Shown here one piece after another: positions 1 to 48,387 of a stretch of 60,160 nucleotides of DNA (within the stretch, counting starts at the first letter, position 1; each line of letters starts with the position of its first letter). The stretch is from Blepharisma japonicum (taxonomy: Eukaryota > Ciliophora > Heterotrichea > Heterotrichida > Blepharismidae): the NCBI GenBank assembly GCA_949751835.1, contig CATKHK010000144.1:1-60160 (forward strand). The letters are read 5' to 3'. The translations under genes and the position numbers were made by a program. The notes beneath the pieces were generated by a model. It searched no databases, was not told the DNA's origin, and saw only the letters and a program-made list of their open reading frames with translations.

Positions 1-1
1 T

Positions 2-1933
2 GCTTTATCTAATTTTTCTAACTGTAAAATGAGTGAATCAAAGCTGTGAAAAGCAATTTTTGAGCCGAAAGATAGAAGACTTGTAGAAAAACTTACTATT
101 TCTAAGTGTGGAAAATATATTGCATGAATTGATCCAATGGTGCAATTAGAGGAACGATGCTTTGTAAGCATATTTTATGTTCCTCAGTTAGTTAAAAAAT
201 GAACTTTGCCACTTTCTAATCATAAAAATGATATTAGTGACTTAAAATTCTCTTTAGACTCATCGCTTCTTTATATTTTATATGTAAAAGAAGATCTTTT
301 GATATGAAATTTCTGTGAAAACTGGCATAAAGTTATAAAGTTAGAAGACAAAATACTTTATTCAGGATCAGCATTTAGCAATACTATGCTCGCATATGCA
401 GTTCCAGATTTTATAAGATTTATATCTTTATTAACATTCCAACCTTTAACTCAAATTAAGATTGGGAGTCAAGTCAAGACTGGGAGTCAATCATACTATC
501 AAATAGAAAATATCAATGAAAAATATCTCCTTTGCCAAAAAAGAAATTCCAAAAAGTATGATAATTGCAAAATGTACAAAATTTGGACAATTGATTATGG
601 AATCAAATCTAAAAAAATTATAGCAGACGGCATCTTTTTTGGTAACGATGTTTACATTAAAATTTATAATCATGCCTTAGAAGTAGTAAAAATGGGATCA
701 AATGATCCTATTTGGAAAATAAGACATGCCAATTATCTATATAAGTACACAATACCATATATTTCATCAGATGATAAATTTTTAGCTTATTTTATTAATG
801 ATGAAATATCTATAGTTGATATTCAGAATCAAGGTTTTATAAAATACTATTATAAGGTTGATAATTTGCATCATAGATGGTGACTAAATCTATTCAAATT
901 AGGCTTTTTAAGATTTAAGCACAAAACAAGAGCCTTAAGTTCTTCTAGCTTCTCTAATACAATTAAAGAATGAAAATGTCAAAGAGATAATCTTGGCATG
1001 CTGTTCAAAGAAAACAATATAATTATTGTTTTGCCTGGCCTATTGAAAATTATAAATATTGAAACAAGGGCAGTCAAATTTATAAAAATCTCAAATAAAT
1101 GCGAATCCATGGCGTTTTCTAACGATATATTTATTTTTAATTTTGGACCTATAATTGAAATCTGAAGTTTGCAAGATAAAGAACTGATGCAAAAATGGCA
1201 TATTTCTGAGAGAGGTAAAGATATACAAATGTCTTTCGAAAAATATCAGTTTTCTTTAATATCTGAACAAAATTCATTCCTCATTTATAGCATTGAATCA
1301 GGTAAAATAATTCATAGGATAAAATACAATGGTGACTATATAGTCTGCTATAAATTTACAGGAGAATATTTAATTTTTAAAATAAATAATTGAATTGGAG
1401 TATGGGATTCAAAAAGTGATGAATGTAAATACATAAAGGTCGATTTTTATATGCGCAAAATTATATGCTCTCCTTGCGGAAGATGGGCATTATTTCATGA
1501 TTCAGACAATCAAAATGGAGCAATTATCTTTAATATTAAAACTGGATTATATAAACCAGCTGAGCATGGAAAAACAAGGTTGTTTCAATACTTTGCATGC
1601 TTTTCGCCATGTGGAAATTATTTAGCAACTGCAGGCTTTTATGATATTATAATATGAGAATCTGCCACTGGGATTAAAATTGCGAAAACTGAGGGTTTGA
1701 GACTAAAAATTGAAAAAATTTGTTATTCTCAATGTGGCAAATATATCGCCTCATATGTAGAAGGTAATGTTATTCAGATTTGGAATGTTGAAAAAGATTT
1801 TAAAAATTTTGAGAAAAGGAGCCAGACAGATTTGGAGTTCAATTTAAGCCTAAATAAGGCTATTTTATCACATACAACTGTTTTTTCAAAAAATAACTTT
1901 TCTGAAGTTTCTTATGTAGACGACGAGATTTAA
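2..1933 (+). CDS. WDP1: pentapeptide-WD40 protein, 5' end outside the window
   Basis: With TGA read as Trp the frame is open from the window edge to TAA at 1931-1933 (643 codons); in the standard code it falls apart into several short ORFs. It begins inside the pentapeptide block (codons reading ALSNFSNCKMSESKL) and runs through divergent WD40-like blades to the family's C-terminal pair, FSPCGNYLATAG near 1606 and CYSQCGKYIASYVEG near 1720, each followed by the hydrophobic-W strand typical of WD repeats. About 175 residues are missing upstream compared with WDP3. In-frame TGAs occur at 47-49, 881-883, 1391-1393 and elsewhere, mostly where paralogs also have TGA or TGG. WD40 propellers act as protein-binding platforms; the partner is unknown. 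Whether the N-terminus is intact cannot be seen here. Confidence 0.85.
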
Positions 1934-2206
1934 ATTAAAGAAATTACACATTAAAAGCAAGTTCAATTTTTATCTCAAATTATCTTATTTAATTTTAATT
2001 TCCTATATATAATTACTAAATGCATTATGATTTGCTAAAATATTTTTATGTTTTATTAAGACTTTTGGATTCTAAAAATAAAAAATTCACTGCAAGAGTA
2101 GTATCCTTATTTGCTGATTTAACTTTTTATGTGTTATTTGAAAGCTTTAACTAAAATGCATTTATTCTTATCCAATTTTATAGAGCACATGCAATATAGA
2201 ATTATA

Positions 2207-3205
2207 ATGGAAGAAAATTATAGACAAGCTTCAGGGAGATGAATCCAGTATCTCCTAGGTTTTGAATTTGAAACTCTTATAAAGAAGAATTCTATACACG
2301 AAAGAAACGCTTTACCCTCAATTATGTATAATAAAGAAAACCCAGGAAGAATAAAATTTGGTAAAGCATCAGCTTTAGAGACTTATCTGGCTGAAAAGAT
2401 TCTCAATGATATCAGAAATTTAAAAAATATTTATTCAATTAAATATTCTTATTTCAATACTTTGAACTTCTCTAAGCTATTAAGAATCACAAGATATTTG
2501 AAAGAGATTTCATATGATGACGATAAACAAAGGTTTTATCAAAAATTGTGCTTCTTTCTAGAGATTCAGAAGAAATTAACTTTGCTTCAAGCAACGCTGC
2601 TACAATTTTGAATAAAATCGGATTTTCTTTTGATTATCTAAATTTGCAAAATATTAAAATTCCTTACACTGATTTGTCAAAAAATTCTTTTATCAGAACT
2701 GATTTTTCTAATAGCGATTTAAGATTTGTAGATTTTACCTCATCATTTGTTAATCTTTCTAATTTTTCTAGCTGTATAATAAGTGAATCAAAGCTGATAA
2801 AAGCAATTTTTGAGACAAAAGACACAGAAGCTATTAAAAATATTACTACTTCAAAGTGTGGAAAATATATTGCATCACTTAATTCAATGCATTGACTAGA
2901 AAAGCAATGTTTTTTAAACATATTATATGTTCCTCAATTAGTTAAAAATGAATTTTGCCGCTTTATAATAATAATGCCGATATTAGCGACTTAAATTCTC
3001 GCCAGTTCATCGATTCTGTATAATTTATACTGTTTCTGTTTGATTTTATATTTTAAGTATTTTTTTGAGTAATGACCATTTACCTTAGGTTTTAATAAGC
3101 GAGATATATATAAAAGAAGATCTTTTGATATGAAATTTCTGTGAAAACTGACATAAAGCTATTAAGTTAGAAGACAAAAAGACTTCTTTAGGATCAGGAG
3201 GAGCT
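2207..3205 (+). pseudogene. WDP2: decayed, truncated pentapeptide-WD40 copy
   Basis: It starts with the family start MEEN at 2207 and matches WDP3/WDP5 through the helical N-terminus. Near 2540, 2 extra nucleotides relative to paralogs shift the frame just before the SNAATILN motif. The pentapeptide block continues in the new frame to about 2895, then a frame with a stop near 2993 follows. A 79-nt insertion (3030-3108) interrupts the first WD-like blade. Homology resumes (the 'GATATGAAATTTC' Trp-containing strand) and ends near 3205, so most of the propeller is missing. Too many lesions for sequencing error alone. Confidence 0.85.
3030..3108. other. 79-nt insertion in WDP2, bounded by TATA
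   Basis: Aligning WDP2 with WDP1 (232-312), the paralog's TTTATA-TGTAAAAG is split here by about 79 nt. TATA lies on both sides of the insert (3026-3029 and about 3105-3108). It has no coding potential and is more AT-rich than its surroundings. It could be an unexcised TA-bounded internal eliminated sequence of the ciliate type, or just a random insertion in a dead gene. Only the insertion itself is directly visible. Confidence 0.4.
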
Positions 3206-3624
3206 GAGTTTAACCACTTGGCTTTTAATTTTAATCAAAACATTTATATTTTTAATGGATTTTTTCCCATTTAGTGTTTAGATCATCTACATTTTTTCCA
3301 ACGATATTGCTCAGCTTAAATATATTAATTTTAAACAAGTTTATTTTTGATTATAAAAACCCTATATTCAAATGATTCCACTACATCATCAGGCTATAAG
3401 CTGCTTCGCAGTTAGCTTACCTCTTCATTATCTTCTTTTTTTATCCTTGTAGCACAAAAATCTTTTTGCTGCTAAATCTATCTGAACTCTCTATTTTTCA
3501 TTATCTTGTCAAAATTATCTAATATAGCACAATTTCAAACAGCCTTAAATTCTAAATATATTTGCTTACTAAGGTTTAAAATTTACATGCTAAATAAGTG
3601 TTAAAGCAATAAATAAATTTCATA
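3206..3624. other. Intergenic, no gene seen
   Basis: AT-rich spacer between the dead WDP2 and WDP3. I see no open frame of note with TGA as Trp and no similarity to other parts of the window. The last part presumably holds the WDP3 promoter, but no motif is clear. Confidence 0.5.
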
Positions 3625-6084
3625 ATGGAAGAAAAGCATCTTCAAGCTTCCAGAATTTTCCAAAAATGAACTCAGCATATTTCAGTTTTAAAATTAGGGA
3701 CTCTTGCTAGTCAGGAATTTTTTCACGAAAGAAACAGTTTTTCTTTAATTAATCAGTTTAAAGAAAAGCCTAGAAGAACAAAATCTGATGAATCATTGGC
3801 CCTTGATATTTATTTAGCTGAAAAGATTCTCAATGATATCAGAAACCTAGGAAATATTTCTTCAGTTAAATATTCCTATTTCAATAATGTGAGGCTTTCT
3901 AATCATTTTCAAATCACGAAACATTTTAAACGGATATCATCAGAAGATGACAAACAAAAATTTTATCAGATTATGCTTCTTTCTAGAGAATCTGAAGAAA
4001 TTTTCCTAGCATCAAGCAACGCTGCCACAATTTTGAATAAAATTGGGTTTTCCTTTGATAATAGAGACTTAAAACATATTAAAATTCCTTATGCAGACTT
4101 ATCAAAGAGCACATTGATAAAAATAGATTTTTCTTATAGTGATTTGAGATATGTAAATTTTACCTCATCACTTGTTGCTTTTTGCGATTTTTCTAACTGC
4201 GAAATGAGTGAATCAAAGCTTGAAAAATTAATTTTTAAATCAAAAGACATCGAAATTGTCGAAGAAATAACTTTTTCAAAATGTGGAAAATATGTTGCAT
4301 CGCTTAAATCAATGAAAGGATCAGACAACTGTTGCTCTGTAAGTATATTTTCTGCTACCCAGTCAATTGAAATGTATATATTACCAATTACTAAGAGTGT
4401 ACGATATATCAGCAACATAAAATTTTCATCAGATTCCTCTTTTCTTTACATTTTATATGTAAAAAAACTTTTTATATGAAATTTTCTTGAAAACTCACAT
4501 AGAGTAGTAAAATTGCAAGACAAAATATCATATTTAAAGCCAGCTTTTAATGATACTATGCTAGCATATTCAATTCCTGACTTTATAAGAATTATATCAC
4601 TATTTACATTTAAAACTTTAACACAAATCGAAGCTGATGAAATATCAGTAAAGCAAATTAGTGGAAAATATCTCCTTGGCAAATGCGATGCAATATCGAG
4701 TATACATGAAAATAAATACGAAATATGGAATATTGAATCTGGAAAAGAATATAAAAATATTATAGCAGATTATATTACAATTTGTAATGATATTTGTATA
4801 AAAAAATTCAACGATGTATTAGAGATAAAAAATTTGTCACTAAATGAAGTTATCTGAAAAATAAGAGATGAGATATTATATAAACATATTTACATTTCAT
4901 CAGATAATAAATTTTTGGCTTCTTTCAAAAATAATGAAATATTTATTGTTGATGTCCAAAAACAGGTTTTATCTAATTATTTTTATTTTCGTGAATCTTG
5001 ATATTATGATGAAAAACAAAATCTATTCAAATTAGGCTTTTTTAGATTAAAAAACAAGGCAAAAATCTTAAAATCTTTTAATTTCTCTGAATCTCTTGAA
5101 TTTAAAAGAAATCAATTTCAGAATTTTTTAATACTTTTTTCAAAAAACACAATATTTATTTACTGACTAGGTCTTATGAAAATAATAAATATTGAAACAT
5201 GAGCAATCGAAACTCTAAAATTTCCAAATCATTTATATAGTGATTCTGTGGCTGTTTCTTACGATTTATGTATTTGCATTCTTCAAAAGTATATCGAAAT
5301 ATGAAATTATAGGACACAAAAACTGATTAGTAGAATACAAATCAATGAACAATATAGTAATATACAAATTTCCCCAGAACAAAATCTATTTTCTGTGATA
5401 TCAAAAAAGGAAAAATCATTTTTTATTTATAGCATTGCCCTAGATCGAATAATTCATAAAATAAAATGCGATTATTACCGTATGGACACTTATAAATTTA
5501 CAGGAAAACATTTAATTTTTGCTTTAGATAAATACCTTGGAATATGAGATAAAAAAACCGACAAAATTGATTTTGTAAATCCTGGTTTTATTATTTTAAA
5601 TATTGAGGGCTCTCCTTGTGGAAGATGAGCAGCATTTCATAATTTTGTCTCAAAAAATGAAGTTATCATTTGAAATATTGATACTAAAGCAGATATAAAA
5701 ATCGCCCATGGAGAAAATGAGCTTAATAAAAACTTTGCGTGTTTTTCGCCTTGTGGGAATTATTTAGCAACTGCAAGCACTTATGATATTATAATATGAG
5801 AATCTGCAACTGGAATTAAAATTGCAAAAACTGGAGGGTTGTCAGAAATTATGAAATTTTGTTATTCACAATGTGGAAAATATATTGTTTCATATGCGAA
5901 AGGGGATTTAATATTGATTTGGAATGCTGAAGAAGGCTTAAAAAAGTTTGAAAGAAGTAATGGGGTAGATTTAGAAATTAGTTTAAATATAGATTGGGCT
6001 ATGAGATCTAATGCAACGGTTATTTCAGGAAATAACTTTTCTGGAGTTTATTATTTAGACGAAAATACAAGCTTTAAATATTAA
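3625..6084 (+). CDS. WDP3: intact pentapeptide-WD40 protein (819 aa)
   Basis: ATG at 3625 opens MEEKHLQAS, the start shared by WDP2, WDP4 and WDP5; the frame is open to TAA at 6082-6084. I read it codon by codon: 11 in-frame TGAs against about 3 TGGs, no TAA or TAG. Order: helical N-terminus (about 1-125, ending in LASSNAATILNKIGFSFD), pentapeptide repeats about 148-205 (units such as ADLSK, IDFSY, SDLRY, VNFTS, CDFSN), then WD40-like blades to the end, the clearest being FSPCGNYLATA from about 706 and CYSQCGKY from about 747. No signal peptide or membrane segment, so probably cytosolic or nuclear. The linker plus pentapeptides resembles the block between ATPase and WD40 repeats in NACHT/STAND-type proteins, but no P-loop is present. 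Biochemical role unknown; protein-protein interaction is the family expectation. No intron is needed. Confidence 0.92.
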
Positions 6085-6370
6085 ATATAAACAAAAATTA
6101 AAATAATTAAATATGTTATAGCATTTCAGATTAAAACTAAGCTATAATCTACTTTAAAAAGCTCAAATTTTTTATCGTTTTCTTTTTTTGTCTTATCTAT
6201 GCTTTGAATAAGATTTTATTTTAAGCACTTTGCCAATAATTATTTTTGAAGATTTCTATAATTAACTATTCTAGTAAAATTGGCATTTGCTTTTCTTATC
6301 TTATTTAGTTTCTTCATTTATCTCACTTAATATATCTTTGCTGATTCATCGCTTTAAAAGCTAGAGTTAG

Positions 6371-8488
6371 AGTGCAATTTCAATTACGCTATTAACTAAA
6401 CTTACTACAGGAGCTTCAATCTCTTCAATAATAACAACTGACTTCACTTCTGAAGCTAATATTGATAAATTGAACTCAGCATATTCTTGGGTATTTAGCA
6501 CTACAGCTTCAACGTCTTATGCAGGAATGACTGATTTTCAATTCTTTGCAATGGATTCAGCAACAATTCCACTTAGTCTTGCCTGAACCTCAGGCTTTCA
6601 GATAGGAGGATACTTTTATACAGCTCAAAATTTAATGTGGTATATGACGCCATGAACGAGCTGAGCTGTAGGAACAACCTTGAAAGTTAGCTTGTCATTT
6701 GATCAAAGCTCCGTGCAATTGAACAAACCCTATATTAATAGCAACGCTCAGTATGCTGAGGCTATATTTGCATCAACAGATTACTCAAGCAGTGCTTTTG
6801 CACTTTCAACTACAGCTATAAATTCTGCTACACTTTCAGGTGGAACTCCTGGGTCAGTTACAATTGTTTTTGCCGCAGGTGGATTCCCAACAATATCAAG
6901 TAAACCATACTTTGCTTTTGCATATGGAGACAAAACAGCTAATGATTACTCAACTGCACTTCCATTCGCTCATTCAAACTTAGGAACTTTTTATGAATGC
7001 TGGGCCAAAGTAACACCCCCAGGATCCTCATCAGCTACTGAATTTTCAAATTATGTGTACTCAGTCTATACAAGCCAAACAGATAGTCAGTTAACATTTG
7101 CTCCACTATGCACTGATTTATATACAGGAGTCCCAATTTCTGTTACTTTCCATGCCTTGAATATGGAATTTGATTTTGCAGACAAAACCAATCATTTCTA
7201 TCTTGACGTTACTTTTAGTCATGGTAGAAATAACTTGGGTTTTGGCTTAACTGATGGCAGCACGCTTCCAGCAGCACTTATAACTACATCCAGTACAGCT
7301 AATCTGAATGTTATTATCACATCAAACGTAGTAACAATTGGTGGACTTGGATCTGTCAGTAAAGATGGCACATCAGTTTTACTATTGCCAAATGGGGGCA
7401 TAACAAAATCAGATGGGTTTATAGCTTTCTATTATGTACCAGATGGAGCAGATTATTCGAATAAATTCGTTCTTTATAATAGTGGGTCAATTCCAGATAT
7501 TCTTACTTCCACTTCTGGCAGCACAGCTTTCTCTACAACTAAAATTTATACCCCTTTAAGCGGAATCTATACAATTGGATCTTCTGTAGGCACTACATGG
7601 GGCTTAACATTAGGAGTATCTGCATCACTTGCTGATTGGATTGGAGTCGGTATACCTGCAGGATTTTCTCTACCATCTTCTGGTGCTTCATTAACCTTAG
7701 GCGGCGCATCAACTATAGCTTATCAAGTTTCTTCACAGAGTAGCACGTTTTTAGGAGGATTCATTGTTGGAAAACTTGCATCAGCTGTCACAGTTTCTTG
7801 AATTTCAGTAGATTTGGCATTAAGCACTTGACTCCTTCATTATCTATTAGATCTGCTTCTAATTGAGTATTAGATAATTTCCTCCTCATTTTCGCTGCAA
7901 CTGCATCAGCAAGATTAAGATGTCAAGCCATCAATCAGCAAACATTAATACTTAATGCTGGTAAAATTTCAGGTGATACATGCAGTTTAAACAATCAATT
8001 TACTCAAGGGCCTGATTCTGTTGATTCTACTTTAACACTTTCATTTGTAACTGTAAATCCTATTCCAGCAGGCGGCTATATTTCTATTACTCTTGCATCG
8101 AGCGTATGGACAATCTTCAACTCATCTCCATTAATAACAACATGTGATGGAAACAATTTTAGTGATCAATCAGATAAAATAACAAGAGGGTGCTATATAT
8201 CACCATCAACCGTACAATTATATAGATTCGCAGCAATTTCAGCGGCAAGTACAGTTACTCTAACTATCTCCCATATCATACTGCATCAACTTCCGCATTG
8301 ACAAATAAATGCTTCACAGATGTTAGGACTTATGATGCAAATGGCTATCTTATAGACACTGTAAGCGGTCTAACAAATTATATTTCTGTAACTGCCTCAA
8401 GCACTGTTGGCACCACAAATTCTAATGATTTCACTGCAAGACCAAAGCCAATATAGTTGGTGCTATACCTGATGTGTTTCTGTCTTTC
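6371..8488 (+). pseudogene. BSP1: decayed surface-protein copy, both ends missing
   Basis: Homology to BSP5/6/7 starts abruptly inside the protein at the segment reading AISITLLTK and stays in one frame, with TGA as Trp, to a TAG at 7871-7873. It includes the family hallmarks ATFYECWAK (LGTFYECWAK here, about 6980) and IGVGIPAGF. Beyond the stop the homology continues in shifted frames (FTQGPDSVDSTLTLSF near 8000, TVNPIPAGG near 8055) and ends around 8488. Signal peptide, N-terminal domain and the whole C-terminal half with the GPI tail are absent. It carries several TGAs, unlike the intact BSP genes, as expected of relaxed codon usage. Confidence 0.88.
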
Positions 8489-8656
8489 TCTAAATAAATT
8501 TTGAAAACTCCCAATTAAAGAAAAGCGCCAAATCCTTTATATGATATTTTTAATGAGGAGACACATAAAATGCTAATAAAAATTTTATTTAAAAAAGTTT
8601 GCATTTTTTAGCATTAAACTTTTATTCAAAAATCATTAAAAAATTTATAGTGGCTA

Positions 8657-10098
8657 ATGCATAAAATAAGCTGTCTATACTTTGCATTTACCTATGGAGA
8701 TTCACTATTTGGTAATCTCTTAGCAACTGCCCTGCCATTTGTTAGATCAAATATTGCAACCTTTTATGAATGCTGGGCCAAAGCTATACTATTAAGGAGT
8801 TCCAGAGCTACTGAATTTTCCAATTACATTTTTTCTGTTTTTTCCTCACAATCAGATAGCAGCTTGACAGCTACTCCAATGTGTACAGATATATATGCTG
8901 GGATTCCTATTATTGTAAATTACCATGCTCTAAACTTAGGCTTCGACTTCGGAGACTCCACAAATAAATATTACCTTGACATTGAATTTATAGCTGGAGT
9001 TGCTAGTAATTTGGGTTCTGGCTTATCAGATGGTAGTGTTTTTCCATTAACTTCTAAATCTTCATCAATCACCCAAACAGCTATGATCAACTCGAATACT
9101 GTGGCAATCTCTGGACTCGGATCTTTCATCAGGGATGATGCTGTTACTTTATTGCTGCCAAATGTGGCTGTCTCTGGGACGTCTTTAGATGCAACTTTAA
9201 CATTTAGTATTCTCAATATAGAGAAAATCCAAATATAAAGATGGTCTTATACACTGGGTCATCTACTACACCCTTTAGCATGAGTACTTCTGTAAGCTAC
9301 CTCAGTACATATAATTCAGTCACTTCAACTTATAGTGTCGAAAAGCGTTCAGTTGGTGTTTTTGGAGGCGTTTGTATTTCAGCGAATGCACAATTATCAG
9401 CTGGCGATTCGATAGGAGTTGGCTTGCCTCCGGAGAATACAGTGTCGTTGTCTAGCTATTCGTTAACCTTAGGAGGTTCATCGTCGTCAGACTTATACTG
9501 TTTCTTCATCTAGCTTCTCATTCACTGGAGAATTTATAGCTGGAATCATTGAAAGCGATATTACTCTTTTTTATTCTCCATGCCCATCATTTAGAATTAA
9601 CGGCTTAATTACACCAGTTTCTACAGGAGAAACCTGAAATGGGATAGACTTAAGCTTTGTAATTTTTTCTGCGTCAAAATCTAAGACTCCTACATCATGC
9701 ATAACAATAGGAGGAAATGTGAATGTATTACTGCCAGTCCTATTCCTGGAAATGGTAAATTAACTATTGTACTTAATTATAGCTCATGAATTATAAGTGC
9801 ATCATCCGTAGCTATTACTTGCGAAGGAATTGGCTTCACAGACTATTCTAGCACTATCCATAAAAGTTGCGTGGTTTCAGGATCAGGATTATTTTTAACA
9901 GGATTTGCTACATATGCATTAGGAATTGTAAATTTAAAAGTTTATCATATAGTTCCTGCTTCAAAGACTGCAACTTCAATAAATTGTTTTTCAGATGTGA
10001 GCACATATGATGAAAATGGATATCTTATAGACTTTCTTTATTCAGCAACAAATTCGGTCACTTTGACCCCATCAACAGACATTGGGACTACAATTTAA
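8657..10098 (+). pseudogene. BSP2: second decayed surface-protein copy
   Basis: Homology starts at the family segment FAFTYGD with ATFYECWAK following (about 8755) and runs in one frame to a TAA near 9236. The next block (MVLYTGSS, from 9241) is in a different frame, so there is a frameshift around 9200-9230. Further blocks lie at 9241-9513 and about 9525-10098 (CEGIGFTDYSS and STYDENGYLIDF, equivalents of CQGVGFTDQS and NTYDANGYVID in BSP5). Like BSP1 it lacks both the N-terminus and the C-terminal half, and stops at nearly the same place in the protein. The pair may derive from one already truncated ancestor. Confidence 0.87.
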
Positions 10099-10654
10099 TT
10101 GCAAAAGGTTTTTCATAATGCTGCTGAGACTTTTTCTTTGATTATTAGACTATTTAGGAGCACTGCAACATCACTGACTTTTAACTCGGCAACATAATAT
10201 TTTTAATAATTTTAAATATTTTTTATGATGCATTTACTGCATTTGCATTATAAGCAAAAGCACCTTAATATTCTTTTAAATAATAATTCTTTAGCTAGCA
10301 AAATTGCCTGATATCATGAAAAATTTCCTTTTATAAATCTTGTTTAGTTTCCTATTTTGCTTGCTTTAAGTTATTCTTTTAGCTGCAAAAGTTATAGTTG
10401 ATTTTTCTTAATATGCTATATTAATTTAAATTGCTTCTAATGTATTCATTTTTGTCGAATATCATAAATAGCGCCAAAATCCTTATATCAATTCTTTTTT
10501 GCTTATAAATAGTTTTTCTCAGTCTTATCTGCATTAAGAGTTGAAAACCATAAGACTTCCTCAATTTAGTGCCATAAACCCACTCTTATATAAGGAAAAA
10601 ATTAAGTCAAATAAGTCGATTTAATAAAGATAAATATAATAAAAAATGATTTCA
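10099..10654. other. Intergenic between BSP2 and WDP4
   Basis: Up to about 10190 there may be very weak continuation of BSP2. The rest is AT-rich with no reading frame. The last 50 nt contain an AATAAAGATAAATATAATAAAA-like stretch also found directly before WDP5 (about 13018-13040), a shared upstream element or simply recent duplication. Confidence 0.5.
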
Positions 10655-12298
10655 ATGGAAGAAAAACATAATGAACCTTACAAATCACCACAAAAGTCAT
10701 TTCAGAGTCTTTCATGCTTTCAAAAGCAAACATTTTCTTATCAAAGAAATACACTATCTTTAATTAGGGACTTTAAAGATAAGCCAAAAAGAATAAAATG
10801 AGATAAATCATCGAACCTCGAGATTTATTTAGCAGAAAAGATTCTTAGTGATATCAGAAATTTAGAAAATATTTCCTCAGTTAAATCTTCATATTTCAAT
10901 AATTTGAACCTTTCTAATCAATTTCAAATCTCAAGACATTTTAAACAGATCATGTCAGAAGACGATAAACAAAGCTTTTACAAAATTATGCTTCTTTCGA
11001 GAGAATTAGAAGAAATTTATTTAGCATCAAGCAATGCAGCAACAATTTTGAATAAAGTCGGATTTTCCTTTGACAATCAAAATTTGCAAAATATTAAGAT
11101 TCCTTATGCAGACTTATCAAAAAATTCTTTTATTAGAACCGATTTTTCTAATAGTGATTTGAAATATGTAGATTTTACTTCGTCATTGGTCGCTTTTTCT
11201 AATTTCTCTAATTGTAAAATGAGTGAATCAAAATTAGAAAAAACAATTTTTGAGCCAAAGGATTGAGAAAAGGTTGAAAAAGTTACTATTTCTAAATGTG
11301 AAAAATATGCTGCATCACTTAACTCAATGAAAAATAAGACTGATAGCTGCTGCATCCTTATTTTTTCTGTTGAACAATCAATTGAAATAAATTCATTGCA
11401 GCTCTCTAATTACAGAATGGTCCATGATTTAAAATTTTCATCAGATTCTTCTATCCTTTATATTTTATATGGAAAAGATGATCTTGCAGTATGAAATTTT
11501 ATTGAAAACAGATATAAAGTTATAAAATTAGAAAATAAAATATCTTCTTTTCTGTTAACATTTACCGAAACTATGCTAGCATATTCAGTTCCAGGTTTTA
11601 TTAAAGCGATATCATTAATTACATTTGAGTCTATATTTCAACTAAATACTGGGAAAGAATTAAACTACCAGGTAAAAAGCATTAGCGATAAATATTTAGT
11701 TAGCCAAAAGCGAGATTCCAGCACACACAAAATTTGGTATATTGAATTTGAGATGAAATGTGAAAAAATTAGAGCAGACTTCATTGATTTATGTGGTGAT
11801 ACTTATATAAAAATTTATAATGGTGTCCTTGAAATAATAAAAATAAAATCAAATGAGTCTATCTGAAAAATAAGAGACGCCGGTTATAAATATACTAAAT
11901 TACACATAGCGGTCTCCCATGGAGAAGAAGATGTTAATAAAAATTTTGGTCGTTTTTCGCCATGTGGAAATTATTTAGCAACTGCAAGTACTTACAATAT
12001 TATAATTTGAGAGTCAGCAACTGGCATTAAAATTGCTAAAGCTGGGGGTTTATTGCTAGAAATTCAAAAATTTTGTTATTCTCAATGTGGAAAATATATC
12101 GCTTCATATATAGAAGGAAATCTAATATTAATTTGGAATGCTGAAGCAGGCCTAAAACAATTTAAAGCAGGAAATAGGATAGATTTAGATATTAATTTAA
12201 GTCTAGATAGGGCTATTATTTCAGATGCAACTATTTTTTCAGGAAATAACTTTTCTGGAGTTTCTTATATAAACGAAGATAAGGATTTTAAGTATTAG
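10655..12298 (+). CDS. WDP4: internally deleted but open pentapeptide-WD40 protein (547 aa)
   Basis: ATG at 10655 (MEEKHNEPYK) is the family start; an in-frame ATG three codons earlier (10646) is also possible, as in WDP5. The frame is open to TAG at 12296-12298 with five TGAs as Trp. The N-terminus and pentapeptide block (ADLSK, TDFSN, SDLKY, VDFTS) are complete and very close to WDP5. After IWKIRDAGYKY (about residue 405-415) the protein jumps to AVSHGEEDVNKNFG and then the C-terminal blades FSPCGNYLATAS and CYSQCGKYIASY. Compared with WDP3, about 270 residues of middle propeller are absent and the frame is kept. It may be a shorter functional isoform or a young pseudogene whose deletion happened to be in frame. 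Confidence 0.85.
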
Positions 12299-13049
12299 AT
12301 TAAATAGATGAATGCTTATAATGATTTACATTGATAAATATTCTATTTATTTTAATTCCTACTAGCTTCATAAAATTTTTGGGTGTGGAAATATTTTGTT
12401 TTGCTAAAAAAGTATTAAAGCGAATATAAGCTTATTTCTCTAAGCATTATTTATTTAAATTTAGAATTTATGTCAAATGCTTCCATTTTTTATAAATTTT
12501 TACCTATGATTCTAATAAATTTTCAGCTTGACTGGATGATAAATTTATCTATATCTAAAAACTGAATCTTTGCAATCTGCCTTTTTAAATTATCTAATTT
12601 TTACTATTCTTTTTATCTTTCACATTCTTGCCTCAAAATTACTAATAATTATTTCCCTTTCCTCCTATCTACCTCTAGGATATAATATATAATTATAAAA
12701 TAAGCATACTTACTGAATTCTTAAATACATGGCTATCGATAAAAAAGAGCTATATAATCTGTTAATTATTGCAATTTGCAGGTTTAATTAAAATATCTCC
12801 ATTTTGTATAAAAAATATAATCTTGTTATCCGTAATTCTCTATTTTCAGCCTTATTTATAATTTTTTCTTTTAACTCTAAAGTAATCAATAATTTTCCTT
12901 TAATCTTATCTACATCAAGAGTTTGGAAAATAATATTAATTTCTTCAGTTTATTATTAAAAACTTCCTTCATATATTTTTAAATCCTAATTTAATTATTG
13001 CTAATTTTAAATCCATTTCAATAAAAATAAATATAATAAAATGATTTTA
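12299..13049. other. Intergenic between WDP4 and WDP5
   Basis: About 750 nt of AT-rich sequence without a credible reading frame on either strand. The final part resembles the sequence upstream of WDP4 (CTTATCTACATCAAGAG near 12906 against a similar string near 10527, and the A/T-rich run before the ATG). The upstream regions were therefore duplicated with the genes. Confidence 0.5.
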
Positions 13050-15476
13050 ATGGAAGAAAAACATAATCAACTATTCAATTCATCACAAAATTCATTTCAG
13101 AGTCTTTCATGCTTTCAAAAGCAAAAATTTCCATATCAAAGAAATACTTTATCTTTAATTAGGTACTATAAAGAAAAACCAAAAAGAATAAAATGAGATA
13201 AATCATCAACTCTTGAAATTTATTTAGCAGAAAAGATTCTCAATGATATCAGAAATTTAGAAAATATTTCCTCAGTTAAATCTTCATATTTCAATAATTT
13301 GAACCTTTCCAATCAATTTCAAATCTTAAGACATTTTAAACAGATCTCGTCAGAAGATGATAAACAAAGATTTTACAAAATTATATTTCTTTCGAGAGAA
13401 TTAGAAGAAATTTATTTAGCATCAAGCAATGCCGCAACAATTTTGAATAAAATCGGATTTTCCTTTGACAAGCAAAATTTACAAAATATTAAGATTCCTT
13501 ATGCAGACTTATCAAAAAATTCTTTTATTAGAACTGATTTTTCCAATAGCGATTTGAGGTATGTAGATTTTACTTCATCATTGGTTGCTTTTTCTGATTT
13601 CTCTAATTGTAAAATGAGTGAATCAAAACTAGAAAAAGCAATTTTTGAGCCAAAAGATAGAGAAGTTGTTGAAAAAGTTACGATTTCGAAATGTGGCACA
13701 TACGCTGCATCACTTTACTCAATGAAAATTTTAGCTAAGAAGTGTTTTGCAGGTATATTTTCTGTTGAGCAATCAATTGAAATAAACTCATTGCAGCTCT
13801 CTAATTATAGAATAGAAATCAGTGATTTAAAATTCTCATCATATTATCCTATTCTTTATATTTTATATTGGAAAGAAGATCTTGTGATATGAAATTTTAT
13901 TGAAAACTGAAATAAAGTTATAAAACTAGAAAATAAAATTCCTTCTTTAGTGTCAGCGTTTAGCGATACTATGCTAGCATATCCAGCTTCTGGCCTTATT
14001 AAAGCTATATGCTTATTTACATTTCAGACTATATTGCAAGTAAAAACTGGGGAAAAAATAGGCTACCAGGTACAAAATATTAGCGATAAATATATAGTCG
14101 GCAAAAAAGGAAATTCTAGAAAACACACAATTTGGTCTACTGAACTTGGAATTAAATATAAAAAAATTAAGGCCGACTCCATTATTTTTTGTGATAATTT
14201 TTTTATAAAAATTTATAGAGATGTCCTTGAAATAATAAAAATGAATTCAAATGAGTCGATATGAAAAATAAGAGACACCAAATATAAATATATTTCAGCA
14301 GATAATAATTTCTTAGCCTCTTTCAGAGGTAATGAAATATCAATAATTGAGATCAAAAAGCAAGCCTTATTGAAATATTCTTACTTTAATGAATGCTGGC
14401 GTAATAACGGGTGATTAAATCTATTCAAGCTTGGCTTTTTTGGATTAAAAAATAAAGCAAAAACCTTGAAATCTTCTAATTTCTCTAGTACAATTGAATC
14501 GAGAAAAGACGATATCAAAATTTTTTCAATGCTTTTTGCAGGAGACACAATAACTATTTTTTCATTAGGTCTTATGAAAATAATAAATATTGAAACATGG
14601 GAAGTCAAAAATCTAAACATTCCAGATAGTCACGAATTCAGATACATGGCGATTTCTGATGATATATGCATTTTTTATATTTCAAATACAATTGCAATCT
14701 GAAATGTGCAAGCTCAAACACTGATAAGGACGATTCAAATAAATGGATGATGTAGCGATTTGCAAATTTCTTTAGACAAAACTCAATTTTCCATAAAAAT
14801 GTATTCAATACAATCATTTGTCATTTACAGCATTGAATCAGGTGTAATAGTCCATACAGTAAAATATGGTGATAGCTATCTGGGCTATTATAAGTTTACA
14901 GGAAAACATCTAATTCACAAAATAAGCAACTCGATTGGAATATGAAATCAAAATAATGATAACTGAGAGTATGTGCACAATGGTTTTTCTATAAAAAATA
15001 TTGAGGCCTCTCCGTGTGGAAGATGGGCAGTATTTCACAATGATATTAAAACAAATGAAGCTATAATCTTTAACATTGATAATAAATTATTTACAGTGAT
15101 CGCTCATGGAAAAGATGAGCTTAATAAAGATTTTTCGCACTTTTCACCATGTGGGAATTATTTAGCAACTGCAAGCACTTATGATATTATAATATGAGAG
15201 TCTGCAACTGGCATTAAGGTTGCTAAAACTGGAGGATTATTGCCAGAAATTATTCAATTTTGTTATTCTCAGTGTGGAAAATATGTCACTTCATATGTAA
15301 AAGGAGATTTAATATTAATTTGGAACGTTGAAGAAGGATTAAAGCAGTTTAAAGAAGGAAATGGGGTAGATTTAGATATTAGTTTACATCTAAATCGGGC
15401 TATGATATCAAATGCAACAGTTTTTTTAGGAAATAATACTTTTGGAGTTTCTTATATAGATGAAGATGCTCTATAA
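13050..15476 (+). CDS. WDP5: pentapeptide-WD40 protein (808 aa) with a replaced C-terminus
   Basis: ATG at 13050 (MEEKHNQLFN); an in-frame ATG at 13041 would add three residues. The frame is open to TAA at 15474-15476 with about ten TGAs and six TGGs. Layout: helical N-terminus 1-125; linker motif NAATILNKIGFSFD 127-140; pentapeptides about 144-200 (ADLSK, TDFSN, SDLRY, VDFTS, SDFSN); WD40-like blades to the end, clearest at about 697 (FSPCGNYLATAS) and 738 (CYSQCGKY). No signal peptide or membrane helix. The last codons differ from WDP3 and WDP4: homology stops after DED, and the final two residues plus the stop are supplied by the antisense BSP3 pseudogene that abuts here. Recruitment or scaffolding is the likely role; partners unknown. 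Confidence 0.9.
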
Positions 15477-16955
15477 ATGGTGGCAGAAGCTGAGCCTATG
15501 GTTAATTTAGTAGATAGAGAAGTAAAGCCTACAGGCAACCCAATTCCTATCCAGCCTTGAGTTATGTCAGAGGTTACAGATGAGGAATCAAGTGTTGCAG
15601 CGATTATTGTAGGAACAGAAATTTCCCTAACAAAGTAAGACCCGCTTGGAGGGCTTGATATTGATCCTGAGACAAAATTAACAATTGCAGCTGAAGTGAA
15701 GGTCGCGCCACCTGATCCAGTATATAGAACCATTTTATTGAGTGGATTAGCTCCAGCTATAAGATAATAGAAAGTTAGAGTTATAATATAGCTTGTCATC
15801 ATTTCTCCTCTATAAGCCAGCAATATATTAACTAACCGTTTAAACTAACCTTTCCGAGTCCAGAAATGGTTACTCTATTTTGATCGCTATAAGTCACGTT
15901 TGGAGTCACCCCAGGCGTCGTGGAAGTAGCAGGGATTTGTTCACCATACAGCAGAAATCCAAAGTTGTTACTGCCTCGATATTCACTTAACTCCACATCT
16001 AAACAGTAAAGATTTGTTGTGTCTCCAAAGTTAAAATCCATATTCAAAGCATGAAAAGTCACAGAAATAGGAATTCCAGCAAAATTATCATTGCACAATG
16101 GAGCAGCAGTTAGTCTAGAATCTTTTTGTGGTGTAACTACTGAGAAAACATAACTTGAGAAAGCCCATACATGTAAATGCTGTTTCCTGTAGAAGAACTT
16201 GCTTTAGCAGTGTTATATCCTCCTTTAGCTCCTCCAGACTGAGCAATAGTGCAAGGTAAGCTATTGTCTCCTTTAGGACCTTTAATATAGTTATTAATAT
16301 TTGAAAGGTCGATAGAAGCACAGATTGGGCTCGAAGAAATAGTCCAACTGCTATCAGGGACGATTTCAAAAATGTCATATTTCCAAAGATTAGTGCCTGC
16401 AGGGATTATAAAGGTAAAGTAAAGTGCATCTGATAAACCAACAATTGCAGTTGTAGAGGTCAAAGTGGCCGTATTTACTGTCAAAGAGTTGGGATCAGCT
16501 GAGGGAACTGAGGCTGAAACTGTAACATAAGCAAAAAAGTAGTTTGCGTCATAGATTTGCCCATATCATGAAGTTTTAGTCACAATCTGGAAAGGCCCAT
16601 AAATACCAGGAGAAGGTAAAGGTGTTCATAATTGGAAAGAAAGTGAAGTATCAGTGTCTGCTACAATTGCAAGATTGAAAGTATAATAAGTTATGCTTGA
16701 GAATGCTGATGGAACAGTTATTATAACAAGTCCTCAATTTCCAATTGCCGGTAAAGATGTTTGAGGTCTAAAATGTACAGTCACAGTAGCATAATTTGTC
16801 TCAGAATTGGTTTGGGAAAGCTCAATAGGATTAGGAACCCAAGTATATTTCCATCATTTGATTCTTCCAGGATTTAAATAGACATCTCTAGCAATTCTTG
16901 AAAGATCTCCCATAACGAGTCATATAAGAGCTAGAAAACTTATAAGACTTATCAT
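15466..16955 (-). pseudogene. BSP3: antisense, internally deleted surface-protein copy
   Basis: On the minus strand an ATG at 16953-16955 starts a signal peptide like that of the intact BSP genes, including the TGA codon (SFLALIW), then WWKYTWVPNPIELSQTNS and the N-terminal domain to YMYGLSQ. There it jumps straight to the segment equivalent to FSVITPQ of BSP7, skipping roughly 400 residues and changing frame (a TAG follows in the old frame). Further blocks (LCNDNFAGIPISVTFHALN; then TFYYLIAGANPLNKMVLYTG) are separated by a stop near 15832. Homology ends exactly where WDP5 begins to differ from its family. Its orientation is opposite to every other BSP copy. Confidence 0.87.
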
Positions 16956-17213
16956 TTTTGGATAAATTCAAATTTACTTCAAATGCTTTGTAATAAAATT
17001 CCTAAGAATTAAAGGAATAAGCCCATTTTAGGTTAGGAAACAATAACAAATTTTTATATTAGAAAAAGAGCCAGGCGAAGAAATTCAATTTTAGCTGTCA
17101 ATGCCTACAAAAATTTGAGAAATGTAGAACAAATATAGTAGCTTTTAAGCTAATAAAAATTTAATTTGGCCTTTAGGCCATCAAAAACGATTCTAATTCT
17201 GATAATTGCTTGG

Positions 17214-21308: not shown

Positions 21309-24300
21309 ATGAAAAGTCTTATAGGCTTTCTAGCCCTTATATGACTAGCTTTTGGAGATCCTTCAAGAACTGCTAAAGATGGATACTTGGATCCTGGAAA
21401 AATCAGATGGTGGAAAGATAATTGGGCTCCTAATCCTATTGAGCTCTCTCAAACCAATTCTGGGACCACTGGTGTTACTGTCACTGTCCACTTTAGACCT
21501 CAAACATCTTTACCAACAACTGGGAATATGGGATATGTTACTGTAACTGTTCCATCAGCTTTCTCATCCACAACAGCCTATCCTTCAACTACTGCACAGG
21601 CAATTGTGGCAAACACTGATACTTCTTATTCATTTACTCTATTAACCTCATTACCTTCTGCAGGAGTTTATGGGCCTTTTCAAATCTTCACCAAAACCTC
21701 AACATCTGGGCAAATCTACGATGCAAACTACGTTTTCGGTTGTGTCGCGGTTTCAGCCTCAGTTTCTTCAGCTGCAGCTAATTCTTTGACAGTAAATGCA
21801 GTCACTTTAAACACTACAACAGCAATTATTGGCTCATCAGATGGACTTTACTTTACTTTTACAATTCCTGCAGGCACTAATCTTTGGAAGCACGATATTT
21901 TTGAAATCGTCCCTGATACTCGTTGGACTATGCATTCAACCCCAACCTGCGCTTCTGTCGATCTTTCAAGCACTAGTCCTAGCAGTATCAAAGGTCCTAA
22001 GGGAGACAATAGCCTACCTTGTGCTGTTGCTCAATCTGGAGGAGCTAATGGAGGATATAACACTGCTAAAGCAAGCTCAGCTTCTTCTACAAACAGTATT
22101 TACATATATGGACTTTCTCAAGATGTTATCATAACTTCAAGCCTACAAGTCAAGCTTCAAGTTTCCACCTTTACTCTTCCTCTTGCAACTATTTCATCGT
22201 CAAGCTTCAACTGGAACCTGAAAATCTGGAGATGGGGAACCACCAATTTGCTTGCGAATTTTGCTGGAAGTGGACCATTGACACCAGTTGCAGGCACTGT
22301 AACAATCAGCTCATGGGTTCCTTATAACTCTAATTTAGCTTCAACTGACATCCCATCTACTAGTACCACTACTATCTTTACTAAGCTCACTTTTCAAGCA
22401 GCTCATGCAATTTCAAATGGATCAATCGCTATTAATTTTAATTCTAACGGCGTAGATATTTCTTCTGGTGTCTGGTGGACAGATCATTCAGATTCAACAT
22501 ACACCCCAGCCACAGGCAAATGCTATCTAAATAACTACGTAAGCGGTATTACATGCACTGTTTCTAGTGCCACAAAGGCAACTATAACTATAGCTTCAGG
22601 TACTACTTTGGCTGCTAATACAGCGATCTCAATTACCTTATTAGCCAAAATCAGTTCAGGGGCTGGCATTAGCTCAATAGTGACTACTGACGCAACTTCT
22701 TCTACAACTATTGACCAATCTGCTTCTGCTTTATCATGGTCATTTAACTCTGGAACTGCTTCAACTTATACAAGCATGACTACCTTCAAATACTTTGCAA
22801 CTACATCACTCACAATACCTCAAAATGCTGTATTCACTGATTCGGGAAATCAAATCGGAGGAAATATTGCTAATACTCAATACTTAATGTGGTATATTCA
22901 GCCATCAACTAGCTGGTCTACATCAACAACCTTAAAAGTCAATTTGCCAATTTCTACTTCAGGCGTGCAGCTGCTTCAAACCTATATTACTACTGGTGCA
23001 AGTTATTATGAAACTGAATTTTCGAGCTCAGATTTAGGTTCAAGCCCACAAACAGCACCAATGACACTTGGGACAGCCCACAATACTCCTACGCTCACTG
23101 CTGGAACTCCAGGTTCTATTTCAATAGCTTTTACTGGAACCTATTACCCTACAACTGGAGGTAACCAATATTTTGCTTTTGCATATGGAGATAACTCAGC
23201 CAATACTAAGCAAGACGCACTGCCATTTGTACAATCGAACGTAGCTACTTTCTATGAGTGCTGGGCTAAGGCTACATCTACAGTTAGTTCTACAGCTACT
23301 GAATTCGCAAATTATGTTTTCTCAGTGATTACTTCACAAACAGATAGTCTCTTTACTGCTGCTCCATTATGTAATGATAATTTTGCTGGAATCCCTATTT
23401 CTGTAAATTTCCATGCTTTGAATATGAAATTTAACTTTGCAGACACTACAAACCATTATTATATAGATTTAACATTTAGTGATGTAGGAGCAAGCAAGCT
23501 AGGTACTGGTGTAGCTAACGGTGGCCAAATCCCTGCAGCCTCTATGACATCTGGAGTGACTCCAACAGTGACTATTAACTCATTAATAGTGACTATTTCT
23601 GGACTTGGATCTGTTGACATGGATAATTCAGTTAATGTATTGCTGCCTTTTGGAGCAGATACGACTTCAAGTACGAGCTATACGATCACTCCAACTTTCT
23701 ATTATCTCGTTGCAGGAGCTGATCCCACTAATAAAATGATTCTATATTCTAATACAATGACTACAGTCACCTTCACTTCATCAGGAAGTGTTAAAAACTT
23801 TGATGCATCAACAGCAATAACAAGTCCTTCAACCCCTTCAATTGGATATTACACTGTTGGAGGAACTTCTGTTACCACAGCAATAAGCTTAAAACTTGCT
23901 AGTTCAATGAATGATCAAACTTCAGGTTATATCGGAATTGGATTACCTGCAGGTTTTACTACTTCATCTACTAAACTGACCTTAGACTCAAATTCAGCAA
24001 CAGCTTATAGCGTTTCTGGTTCAAGCAGCTCTTTTAAAGGAGGATTCATAATTGCAGCACTTTCAAGCACTATGAAAGTTGCAGGCAATCCGCAACAACC
24101 AGCCTTATTAATAAACAACCCTGCCCCTCGATCTTTAGTGTCAACAGTAACATCCTTATCAATGGACCAAGGTCTTAATGCTCCTCTATCGATAGGGTCA
24201 TCAGGATCTGGAACTCCTACAGTATTTATCGCAGGCTCCTCAACAGGCAGCGCATGCGTATCCGCATCATTATCAACACCATTATCAGTAAGTATAAACG

Positions 24301-27300
24301 CTGGAAAGATTAGTTCTGATAGCTGCACACTAGATAAAATGTTCACTCAAGGCTCAGACTCAGTCGATTCCACCCTTACATTTTCATTTACAACTGTGAA
24401 TCCTATTCCTACAGGTGGGAAAATTGTGATTACTCTAACATCAGGTGCTTGGACATTGCAGTCTTCAGCTCCTCTTGTGAGCACCTGCCAAGGAGTTGGG
24501 TTCACTGACCAATCCACATCGCTGAAGCAATCATGCTCTCCATCAGGAACAACAGTCACATTAACTCAATTTTCTCAGATTGCCGCAGGACAGATAACCG
24601 TAAAATTGTCCCATGTCATCCCGACCTCTACCGCCACAACAGCATTAACTTGCTTTACAGCTGTGAATACTTATGATGCAAATGGATATGTTATAGATTC
24701 TGTATCTAGTAGCTTAGCTAACTCTCTAACTGTGCAAACTTCAACTGCAGCAGGAACCACAAACGCTAATTCTTTTATTTCTAAAGCTTATCCAAATGTT
24801 CCTGGGGCAACCGCTGACATATATTTAACCTTTTCATTATCAAAGGCAGTCCCTCAGTATGGTATAATATCAATCACCCCAGGATTTGTCAGTTCTTTAG
24901 CTCTCTCCTCTGGAGACGTCTCAAGTGCTTGTTGGACTGACCAAGACTATTACTCTTGCACTGTTTCAGGCACCTCTATTCAGATACAATTAAGTAATGC
25001 TCTTGCTGTCAATACGGCAATGAAGGTGTATTTGGATATGGCTTTAATTCTTCCTACCAGCAATTCTACTTCAACAGGCTGGACAATTTCATCCTCATGG
25101 GGTGGTGTCTCAATTACAGCTGATTCTACTTCTGCTTCACCTGCAACATTCCAGCAGACAATAGGAACTGCTGTGAGTTTTGCTATCGCAGTAGCTTCAA
25201 TTTTGCCTGTTAATTCACAAACTGCAGATGAGACAAGTTCTTATACATTTACTTTCACATCAGCTGTTGTGGTTGCTGCGTCTGATTCATTTGTAATTGA
25301 ATTCCCTAAGGACTTTAGTCCTCTTCTTGGGCTTGCCAGTGCTGTATTTCCTGACTGCTCACCTAATAGTTTTTATACAACTTGCAGCTCAACTGCATTA
25401 GGAATTTCAGTCGGGACTTATTGCAGTGTTGACCATTGGAAGCTTACTGTGACAGGAATTACTAAGGCAACAACTTCGACTACTTCAAGTATTGATATTA
25501 CTGTGGATGGGATCCAAAACCCAGCAGCAGTTACAACCGGAAAATTCAGCTTTTACCAATATGGCTCAGATGGATCTGTTAAGGCTTATGTACAGAAATC
25601 CGGTACAGTGACTACTACAGCCCTTGCTTCAACGATGGTTATGCTTAAAGATGCAACAGTGGATGTTTCAACTCTTTCGAAATCAGCTACGTATACTTTT
25701 GATTTCTACCTCTCTTCATCCACCACCTTTACTACAGACCACATCATCTCCATCTATTTCCCATCACAATTTAATAACAAATTAAGAAACGGAAGCACAG
25801 TGCCTTGCAAGGCTGTCTACTATGACGAATCATCCTCATCTACCAGCACCACAACAAGTAATACTTTAAGCTCTGCAACCTCATGTTCAATCTCTGGAAG
25901 CAACGTCACTATTCCTTTCCCAAGTTCAATGACAGCAGCCACTGCAACAACCTCAAGGATCCAACTCCAGCTGACTGGCTTCTACAACCCTGAATCAGCC
26001 ATATCAAGGACTACAGGATGGGACGTGACTGATTATTCTACTTTTAGTGGCTCGACTAATTATGACAGTTTCAGCAATAAGTTTTCAATAGCTATTAACC
26101 AAAACAGCAAGACCCAAATATACGCAGAAAGTTGGCCTAACCTTAACTCAGCTTATATTGGATATTCAATAGGTCAAGGAAATGGGTATTCATCTTCTCC
26201 TAGCCAAAGCTCATCAAAAATTGGATTATTGCCTGGGCAGCAAAGCTCTGATATCACTGTATCGATTCTTGATAGCAATAGCTGGCCTATGAAGTCAAAG
26301 TCATATAAACTGACCCCAACTACAAACGCAAATTACCCTGATAGTGGAAACCTTAAATATACGTCAGCTTACTATGGCTTCACTGTTTATCAGATGGTTG
26401 GCCAGTTTACTTTCAGAGTAGCAGCATCAAGCAGTGCAGCAACTGGAATTTATTATATCGATTGGGGAACACCTACAGAAAAACTGCAAGATGGAGTTCA
26501 AAATCCTTTATATGTCGCTCCAGCAAGTGTAATGATAGAAGTCTGCAGCTCCTTATCCGCTGTAACTATTACTGTTGACACTTTGCCAACCTTCTATCAA
26601 TACTACGCCAGCATTCCAATCAAAGTATCTCTTGCCAATGCCCCTGCAACCCAATTAATAGTTACCCCAACATTTTCAGTCGCAGGATTCACAATTACCC
26701 CTACTTCTCTTACCTTTAGCCCTGATGTTAATGCTCTTTATTTCCAAGTTTATGTTGGCTCAACCTATGCAGCCTCTACAACCACACAACCAAGCATTAG
26801 CTATGCATTGTCAGGGACAGATGCTGCTGCCTTTGCAGCACCAAGCAAGCAGACAGCAACTGTTTCAGCGACTTATCCTAGCATTGTGACAGCAACTCCA
26901 GGATTATCAGTGACCAAGGTAAGTGCTTCTGAAGTTAAAGTTTCAGTCACATCGACAATTCCTGGAGTTTTGTATTGGGGAGTTGGATGTCAAGGTTCTC
27001 CAGTTCTCACATTTTCTGGCCTTTCAGCTTTAGTTTCTGACCTTGTGACACCATCTAAATCTATTCAAACTCTACAGGAACAATTAGCTTACCAATATCA
27101 GAATACACAAACTGATATTGATACTACAAAAGGGGACACTGATATTAATTCATTTTTCAAAAGAATCCACTCAGAGCATTGCAGTGACTATTGGGCTTCT
27201 TCACAGGTTATTAGTACGGCTGGAGCAATCATTGATTTGAATTGGCTAATGGCAGGAACTAGCTATACTTTTTCTGCTTATATTGCCACCAAATTGACCA

Positions 27301-48169: not shown

Positions 48170-48387
48170 GCAATTTATTATAAAGAGACCATCTATTCTT
48201 GAGTTTTATCTATGCCAGAAGCTCCTCAAAGACCTAAGAAGCTGAAAAATATTTCTTTAATTAAAAATTCGTATTTCAATAATTTGAACTTTACTGATCA
48301 CAGACTAATTGCAAAACACCTCAAACAATTCTCATCAAGATGATAAGCAAAGGTTTTTCACAATTATACTTCTTTCTAGAGAATTAT
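48170..48387 (+). pseudogene. WDP7: short pentapeptide-WD40 N-terminal fragment
   Basis: Matches the same N-terminal stretch as WDP6 (ISLIKNSYFNNLNFTDH, then GATAAGCAAAGGTTTTTCACAATTATACTTC) but stops after TCTAGAGAATTATA, just before the SNAATILN motif. Frames are broken. It is the 3' element of the BSP7 unit. Confidence 0.75.

Follow-up and report, generated by a model that had tools for sequence, protein, structure and literature searches.

Receptors of the NOD-like receptor (NLR) type are usually viewed as single proteins that join a sensor, an ATPase switch, and an effector, and the cell-autonomous immunity of protists is little known. NOD-like receptors built from NACHT, PPR, and WD40 parts are described as common to Mortierellomycota and their Mycoavidus endosymbionts (PMC11291939), and fungal WD-repeat NLRs of Podospora are described as carrying highly conserved repeats, for which the criterion is an internal identity of >85% over at least 100 amino acids (aa) (PMC4986451). 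Our literature search, which covered few subscription journals, found no ciliate case and no detached tails of such receptors. Here, we describe a gene family of the ciliate Blepharisma japonicum with members on one 60-kb contig, C144 (CATKHK010000144.1; 60,160 nucleotides), of a 45.2-Mb genome in 224 contigs; the whole contig is the stretch analyzed and is called the window below. A first-pass annotation of its sequence had placed between 3625 and 15476 pentapeptide-WD40 proteins resembling the tail of NACHT/STAND sensors. We show that the window proteins are relatives of NACHT-pentapeptide-WD40 (NLR/STAND) proteins that keep the part from the helical STAND end onward and lack the ATPase.

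Architecture of the Window Proteins

Three genes on the forward strand, gene C (3625-6084, 819 aa), gene D (10646-12298, 550 aa), and gene E (13041-15476, 811 aa), are open over their full length with TGA read as tryptophan; a conserved internal methionine (MEEKH) suggests starts at 10655 for D and 13050 for E. Each contains a block of 132 residues (3811-4206 in C, 10826-11221 in D, and 13221-13616 in E, all forward), which comprises six predicted helices, a linker of the form NAxTIL-x16-IPxADLS, and pentapeptides. In C and E, the block and pentapeptides are followed by a WD40 part, and in D about 260 propeller residues are deleted in frame. At the protein level, E is 58% identical to C and 74% identical to D over the part that D retains. 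Four occurrences of the linker pattern were counted in the window, against none in 100 shuffles. The proteins first reported are real; the window also holds a copy that lies before them, a decayed one, and fragments, all described below.

The pentapeptide model PF00805 (cut-off 20.2) scores above its cut-off in D (23.5) and E (25.5) and does not reach it in C (17.4). The window genes are also matched by Pfam propeller models, but almost none of these matches reaches its curated cut-off; the propeller is clear in other family members (for example L021, PF00400, 184 bits). A structural model of the gene E block (13176-13685; mean predicted local distance difference test [pLDDT] 82.5) shows helices followed by a right-handed pentapeptide beta-helix. 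A comparison of this model with PDB structures (VIA-align) gave middling Z scores, and its helices were similar to ARM-type repeats, though not in clear excess; the PDB matches listed include no solved NACHT protein, which excludes nothing. The full-length model of gene E (mean pLDDT 37.8) was unusable. Searches of a window protein against NCBIfam and PADLOC returned only weak pentapeptide or unrelated rows, and the family profile now serves as a marker for the helical part, which Pfam, NCBIfam, and PADLOC did not supply in the scans made.

Set against a NACHT-pentapeptide-WD40 receptor, the window genes thus have the helical STAND end with the linker, the pentapeptides, and the propeller, and lack the P-loop NACHT and the effector domain. 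Pfam finds no N-terminal effector domain in A (a partial copy, below), C, D, or E up to an E-value of 1, and neither an effector domain nor an F-box in residues 1-121 of gene E scanned alone. An ATPase exon hidden upstream of gene E was ruled out, as there is no frame >88 aa between D and E.

Relationship to NACHT Proteins

The first-pass annotation had likened the linker to that of NACHT-pentapeptide-WD40 proteins, and profile comparison bears this out. With hhalign, the family block aligns to a bacterial NACHT-protein segment (12 rows) at a probability of 99.9 (E 3.6e-34), and the helices without the motif still align at 95.1 (E 2.9e-8), against a maximum of 0.65 among 40 column-permuted controls. 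Used as a DNA pattern, NAI[TS]xL-x16-IPxA[DN]L matched the genome collection at 15 stretches, from records named Chlamydiae, Gammaproteobacteria, Candidatus Glomeribacter gigasporarum, and Verrucomicrobia, and the viral collection at 2. Matches found by this motif are preselected for about a dozen residues, and the pattern-independent evidence consists of the helix-only tests and the profile-only matches. In 10 of the 17 pattern-found frames, a P-loop lies 366-496 aa upstream of the linker; among the other seven, the P-loop of L052 is encoded upstream in an overlapping frame, L050 and L064 are cut off, and L053, L055, L058, and L062 are ATPase-less. In a helix-only profile search, 6 of the 17 pass an independent E-value (i-E) of 1e-3.

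Pfam NACHT is above its cut-off in L054, L060, and L063, just below it in L059 and in L016, the ciliate protein described below, absent from L051, and not among the Pfam matches listed for L049 and L065; in these last two, as in L051, L059, and L016, the ATPase assignment rests on the P-loop motif. ARM_5, TIR, or WD40 accompany NACHT in some frames, and L054, from the fungal endosymbiont Candidatus Glomeribacter gigasporarum, has the order ARM-NACHT-linker-pentapeptide-WD40. Two loci from gammaproteobacterial metagenome-assembled genomes may be mentioned in their own right: L063 (1273-5433) encodes a TIR/SEFIR-NACHT-linker-WD40 protein, and in L052 the P-loop part (2-1684) and the linker-pentapeptide-WD40 part (1666-4287) occupy two overlapping frames, which may reflect a frameshift or a natural split.

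Found by the family profile and so independently of the pattern, a gammaproteobacterial frame in genome G239 contains P-loop and linker together, in the order GESGSGKT, LLILDGYDE, FIHDTLREYFGAKQLF, a FLAEQI stretch, AAANAITIMV, and pentapeptides. Furthermore, in the alignment, KSSTLEIYLAEKIL of gene E falls on the HKSLIEYFAARELF-like stretch that closes the NACHT module of L059 and related proteins. What the first-pass annotation had called a short helical N-terminus thus corresponds to the helical STAND-module end just after NACHT. Together, these comparisons indicate that the family block is homologous to the segment between NACHT and WD40 in bacterial NACHT-pentapeptide-WD40 proteins; the window proteins are a tail family of this receptor class and, where the ATPase defines the class, stand outside it. 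Matches in PDB and curated libraries are confined to the pentapeptide and WD40 parts, as they would be if these were generic pentapeptide and WD40 proteins with no NACHT link, the outcome that the first-pass annotation had named as refuting its view; the helices alone match NACHT-protein segments of P-loop proteins, which refutes such a reading and leaves it hardly credible.

A P-loop-bearing relative, which the first-pass annotation had proposed to look for, is present in the same genome. A NACHT search gave 16 places at an E-value of 0.1 or better, and one NACHT-WD40 protein with the helical half was found, L016 (C7:225418-227820), in which the P-loop GGSGSGKS, a Walker B-like FILDGFD, and NACHT (cut-off 26.7; 30.3 bits when the genome was searched and 25.2 bits in the protein scan) are followed by WD40. 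A profile of 30 ATPase-less members, L016 excluded, matches L016 exactly between NACHT and WD40 (profile positions 2-83; i-E 3e-11, calculated in a small set of fetched frames). The gene E block alone as query matches it at 4e-6, and a back-search with L016 returns family blocks on C41, C95, and C147. The genome also has large STAND frames without the block (L009, L010, L012, and L014, on C15, C12, and C7); Pfam finds CHAT and NACHT in L010, and the other three look similar by eye. A tblastn search of plasmids and phages gave no match, and scans with pattern A2 of genome and viral contigs gave 65 and 68 stretches, none confirmed.

A Large Family without P-Loops in the Members Checked

With a single-block query, the family occupies 94 places at an E-value of 1e-3 or better on about 47 contigs, a count for which all 98 candidates were scored and in which fragments and the query itself are included. 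The loci fetched yielded 27 open family frames of 500-890 aa, which contain N-terminus, block, pentapeptides, and WD40. Two of these were dropped from the P-loop count because the linker was not located; in the remaining 25 frames (at least 500 aa), no P-loop was found upstream of the linker. For one of the 25 (L024), the locus ends before the start of the frame is reached, and the missing part was read in L025. A comparison of the two lists by eye finds no block place (94 in all) within 50 kb of a NACHT place (16 in all). The family is thus amplified and, in the members checked, without a P-loop, as first proposed, but it is dispersed across the genome and not just a tandem array at this locus.

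Two observations on individual loci may be added. L071 (C136:67950-70500) is a family copy whose frame breaks at 283 aa, with a longer copy as its neighbor; its start is cut by the stretch fetched. Kelch-like frames were seen by eye near family or NACHT loci, at L017 1361-2872, L026 4063-5763, and L011 2715-3536.

Constrained Block and, in Most Pairs, Faster Propeller

We compared the ratio of nonsynonymous to synonymous rates (omega) between block and propeller in six paralog pairs with bootstraps and obtained 0.14-0.32 for the block and 0.41-1.20 for the propeller. Nonsynonymous rates differ between the two parts in all five pairs so compared (Fisher p 3e-6 to 2e-11), and synonymous rates in only one of the five (D-E, p 0.02). 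The C30 pair (91% identical) has nonsynonymous differences at 1 of 319 sites in the block and 75 of 1391 in the propeller, which suggests that selection may have favored propeller change in this pair. In the C97 pair, differences are concentrated at residues 550-750, and between C and E the last ~120 residues change less. Judged by these ratios, the block is under strong purifying selection and the propeller evolves faster in most pairs compared.

Some copies are visibly decaying: B, F, and other fragments are broken, the propeller of D is partly lost, and the C136 copy is interrupted. If the family as a whole consisted of decaying or selfish duplicates without function, the low block omega across pairs and the 27 frames open over at least 500 aa would be hard to explain, and we regard this reading as very improbable and strongly disfavor it.

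A constant block, a faster propeller, and a large birth-and-death family form the pattern expected of a recognition repertoire with one shared partner, and surveillance is the field that the homology to NACHT proteins favors most. The first-pass annotation had raised sensing parts, decoys, or adaptors as possible roles. Our preferred reading, to which we would assign a probability of roughly 0.46, is that the tails act in trans as recognition adaptors. The fast-changing propeller would bind varied targets (intracellular bacteria, food prey, or self), and the constant block would dock on one common partner, which would give the output; this could be a NACHT protein like L016 or a ubiquitin-ligase-type module. 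A more specific arrangement, which we consider improbable, is a split NLR, in which one or a few NACHT hubs such as C7:225418-227820 would read ~90 interchangeable ATPase-less tails via the block, and the mirror-image tails of intracellular Chlamydiota, one of them seen with an F-box, could plug into the hub or degrade it.

Several points weigh against adaptors acting in trans. Three of the six pairs share genes C, D, and E and are non-independent. The C30 propeller omega of 1.20 has a bootstrap range of 0.73-2.32, which spans 1, and no other pair is that high; faster propellers could reflect weaker constraint and not selection for diversity. For two gene pairs from the C12 subgroup, omega is scarcely different between block (0.22-0.32) and propeller (0.31-0.33), and several pairs also change fast in the stretch that precedes the block (up to 1.16). 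The window genes are without an N-terminal effector domain detectable by Pfam. Finally, L016 aligns weakly to the bacterial segment (hhalign probability 32) and has no clear pentapeptide stretch, and it is the only NACHT protein found to carry the helices, against ~90 family places.

ATPase-less Relatives in Chlamydiota

Relatives without the ATPase also occur in Chlamydiota (L053, L055, L058, L062, L078, L079, and L081; the record of L055 and L081 is titled Verrucomicrobia, yet was searched within the phylum of a Chlamydiae record), so the detached module is not unique to the ciliate. In the phylum of genome G004 (232 genomes), 53 genomes match the family profile, and just 8 of the 53 (27 matches) have matches whose listed ranges start no later than profile position 46; the remaining matches look like generic pentapeptides. 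Genome G006, whose record is likewise titled Verrucomicrobia and was searched in that same phylum, contains nine blocks; their frames measure 408-833 aa and are arranged in two groups of one strand each (at C21 748-16854 and C18 116693-121802) with mostly ~2.4-kb spacing, and no P-loop precedes the block in the two genes read. A further relative, in G098, is 915 aa long and has no P-loop.

A tree of the blocks places the window genes together with the copies from C37 and C12:485222. The majority of bacterial NACHT rows stand apart from them, with the ATPase-less L055 near or among those rows, and the chlamydial L053, L058, and L062 form a separate, long branch. L016 has a branch of 2.88 and an unsure placement, and the backbone is open. 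This tree, a weak one, gives no sign of recent transfer.

Stand-alone forms in ciliate and Chlamydiota alike could mean that helix-linker-pentapeptide-WD40 is an old stand-alone scaffold, later borrowed by NACHT proteins, and that the ciliate has in it ordinary scaffolding, another large family of the WD40/kelch type. The open backbone leaves the direction of loss or gain unsettled, the kelch-like frames adjoin some family loci, and the C12 pairs show no excess of propeller change, all of which would fit. However, in a gammaproteobacterial order (10 genomes), each of the six matches extending over the helices belongs to a frame of 973-1619 aa with a P-loop upstream; the frozen block and rapidly changing propeller of the other pairs are unlike a housekeeping scaffold, and decayed copies point to birth and death. 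We consider the scaffold somewhat unlikely and continue to favor recognition adaptors.

One chlamydial fusion bears on the output. In L078 (a 945-aa protein of G104), an F-box precedes the block (PF00646, 28.2 bits, cut-off 20.5), which means that the block-propeller unit can be joined to another output. The family might accordingly be read as substrate receptors of ubiquitin ligases, with an N-terminal part that recruits the ligase and a propeller that picks the substrate. In keeping with this, members of the C12 subgroup have a Cys/His-rich start, B-box-like by eye, followed by helical-looking sequence; but Pfam finds no B-box in the two C12-type starts tested, nor the F-box sought in gene E. 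Such a role appears doubtful to us.

If the tails do act in trans, they would constitute a sensor-helper arrangement in a protist, and a split NLR, if true, would give a single-celled predator an innate immune repertoire of the one-hub-many-sensors type. The conserved block, one domain of ~130 residues, offers a defined handle for finding the common partner.

Contig Setting and Neighboring Genes

The array begins earlier than first reported. Gene A (2-1933, forward, 643 aa), of which the end of the pentapeptides and the WD40 propeller are present, is cut at its 5' end by the contig edge. The missing 5' part lies in the first bases of contig C37, whose reverse strand ends inside a family gene ~10 codons before the window start; gene A is thus most likely one gene split by assembly, and the array, which is tandem as described, runs onto C37. 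Gene B (about 2207-3197, forward) is a decayed copy with a frameshift inside the block and a subsequent truncation. Downstream lie fragment F (28765-29271, forward), with the second half of the block and the beginning of the propeller, and a short frame that encodes part of the helical region (48050-48343, forward; i-E 2.1e-6).

The reading of TGA as tryptophan rests mainly on the opening of frames. Under the standard code, which was rejected, family genes break at TGA, and whole frames are restored with TGA as tryptophan. In a paralog alignment, TGG is the top single partner codon of TGA (7 of 39 cells), and serine codons sum to 9. Repeats of CCCTAACA stand at contig ends in the places listed (77 forward, 91 reverse; 0 for the reversed control). 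Blepharisma stoltei is described as having UGA as tryptophan, an AT-rich somatic genome of 41 Mb, and CCCTAACA telomeres (PMC9942806).

The interval 3625-15476 holds family genes, but not these alone, as ~6.4-10.1 kb is a decayed antigen-like gene. Such decayed pieces flank D and E in opposite orientations (6371-10095, forward; 15455-16973, reverse). Large Ser/Thr-rich antigen-like proteins lie at 21309-28130, 40897-47661, 30360-33446 with 34031-35236, and 57034-60159; by eye they look secreted, with a signal-like start and a hydrophobic end (2273 aa); two are 94% identical and the others partial, and none has a convincing Pfam match. The antigen-like family occupies 44 places in the genome. 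L008, on the adjoining C37, holds a relative, and contigs C96 and C21 of this genome carry both families, ~28 and ~37 kb apart by the listed places. No antigen relative was found at the 19 other family loci examined (L017-L036 without L023). The antigen-array neighborhood given earlier as the family's context is therefore taken as local to C37/C144, and the array was rejected as a functional partner.

Comparison with Known Systems

The sensor half and its helical coupling piece are amplified alone in the ciliate and occur alone in Chlamydiota as well. The likeness to the NACHT-PPR-WD40 receptors of Mortierellomycota and Mycoavidus (PMC11291939) is one of domain order, with PPR taken here to mean pentapeptide repeats, and it runs via bacterial relatives such as L054. 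The window genes differ from these receptors in being without ATPase and N-terminal effector, in having ~90 places in one genome, and in belonging to a ciliate.

The Podospora WD-repeat NLRs, presumably those named HNWD, resemble the family in their WD40 recognition end, in forming a gene family, and in their variable propeller. Unlike them, the window genes are without ATPase. We found no tandem repeat at the DNA level in 1-16000, and thus no sign there of repeat shuffling. Compared with an F-box/WD40 substrate receptor of ubiquitin ligases, gene E is without the F-box, which is present in the chlamydial L078.

Within the same genome, L016 has the same helical half between NACHT and propeller, and it differs in its P-loop NACHT, in having no clear pentapeptides, and in being the single copy found. 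The ATPase-less relatives of Chlamydiota are bacterial, L053, L058, and L062 are set apart by their long branch, L055 lies near the bacterial NACHT rows, and L078 has an F-box; they share with the window proteins the same architecture, a similar length, and, in G006, an arrangement in tandem groups.

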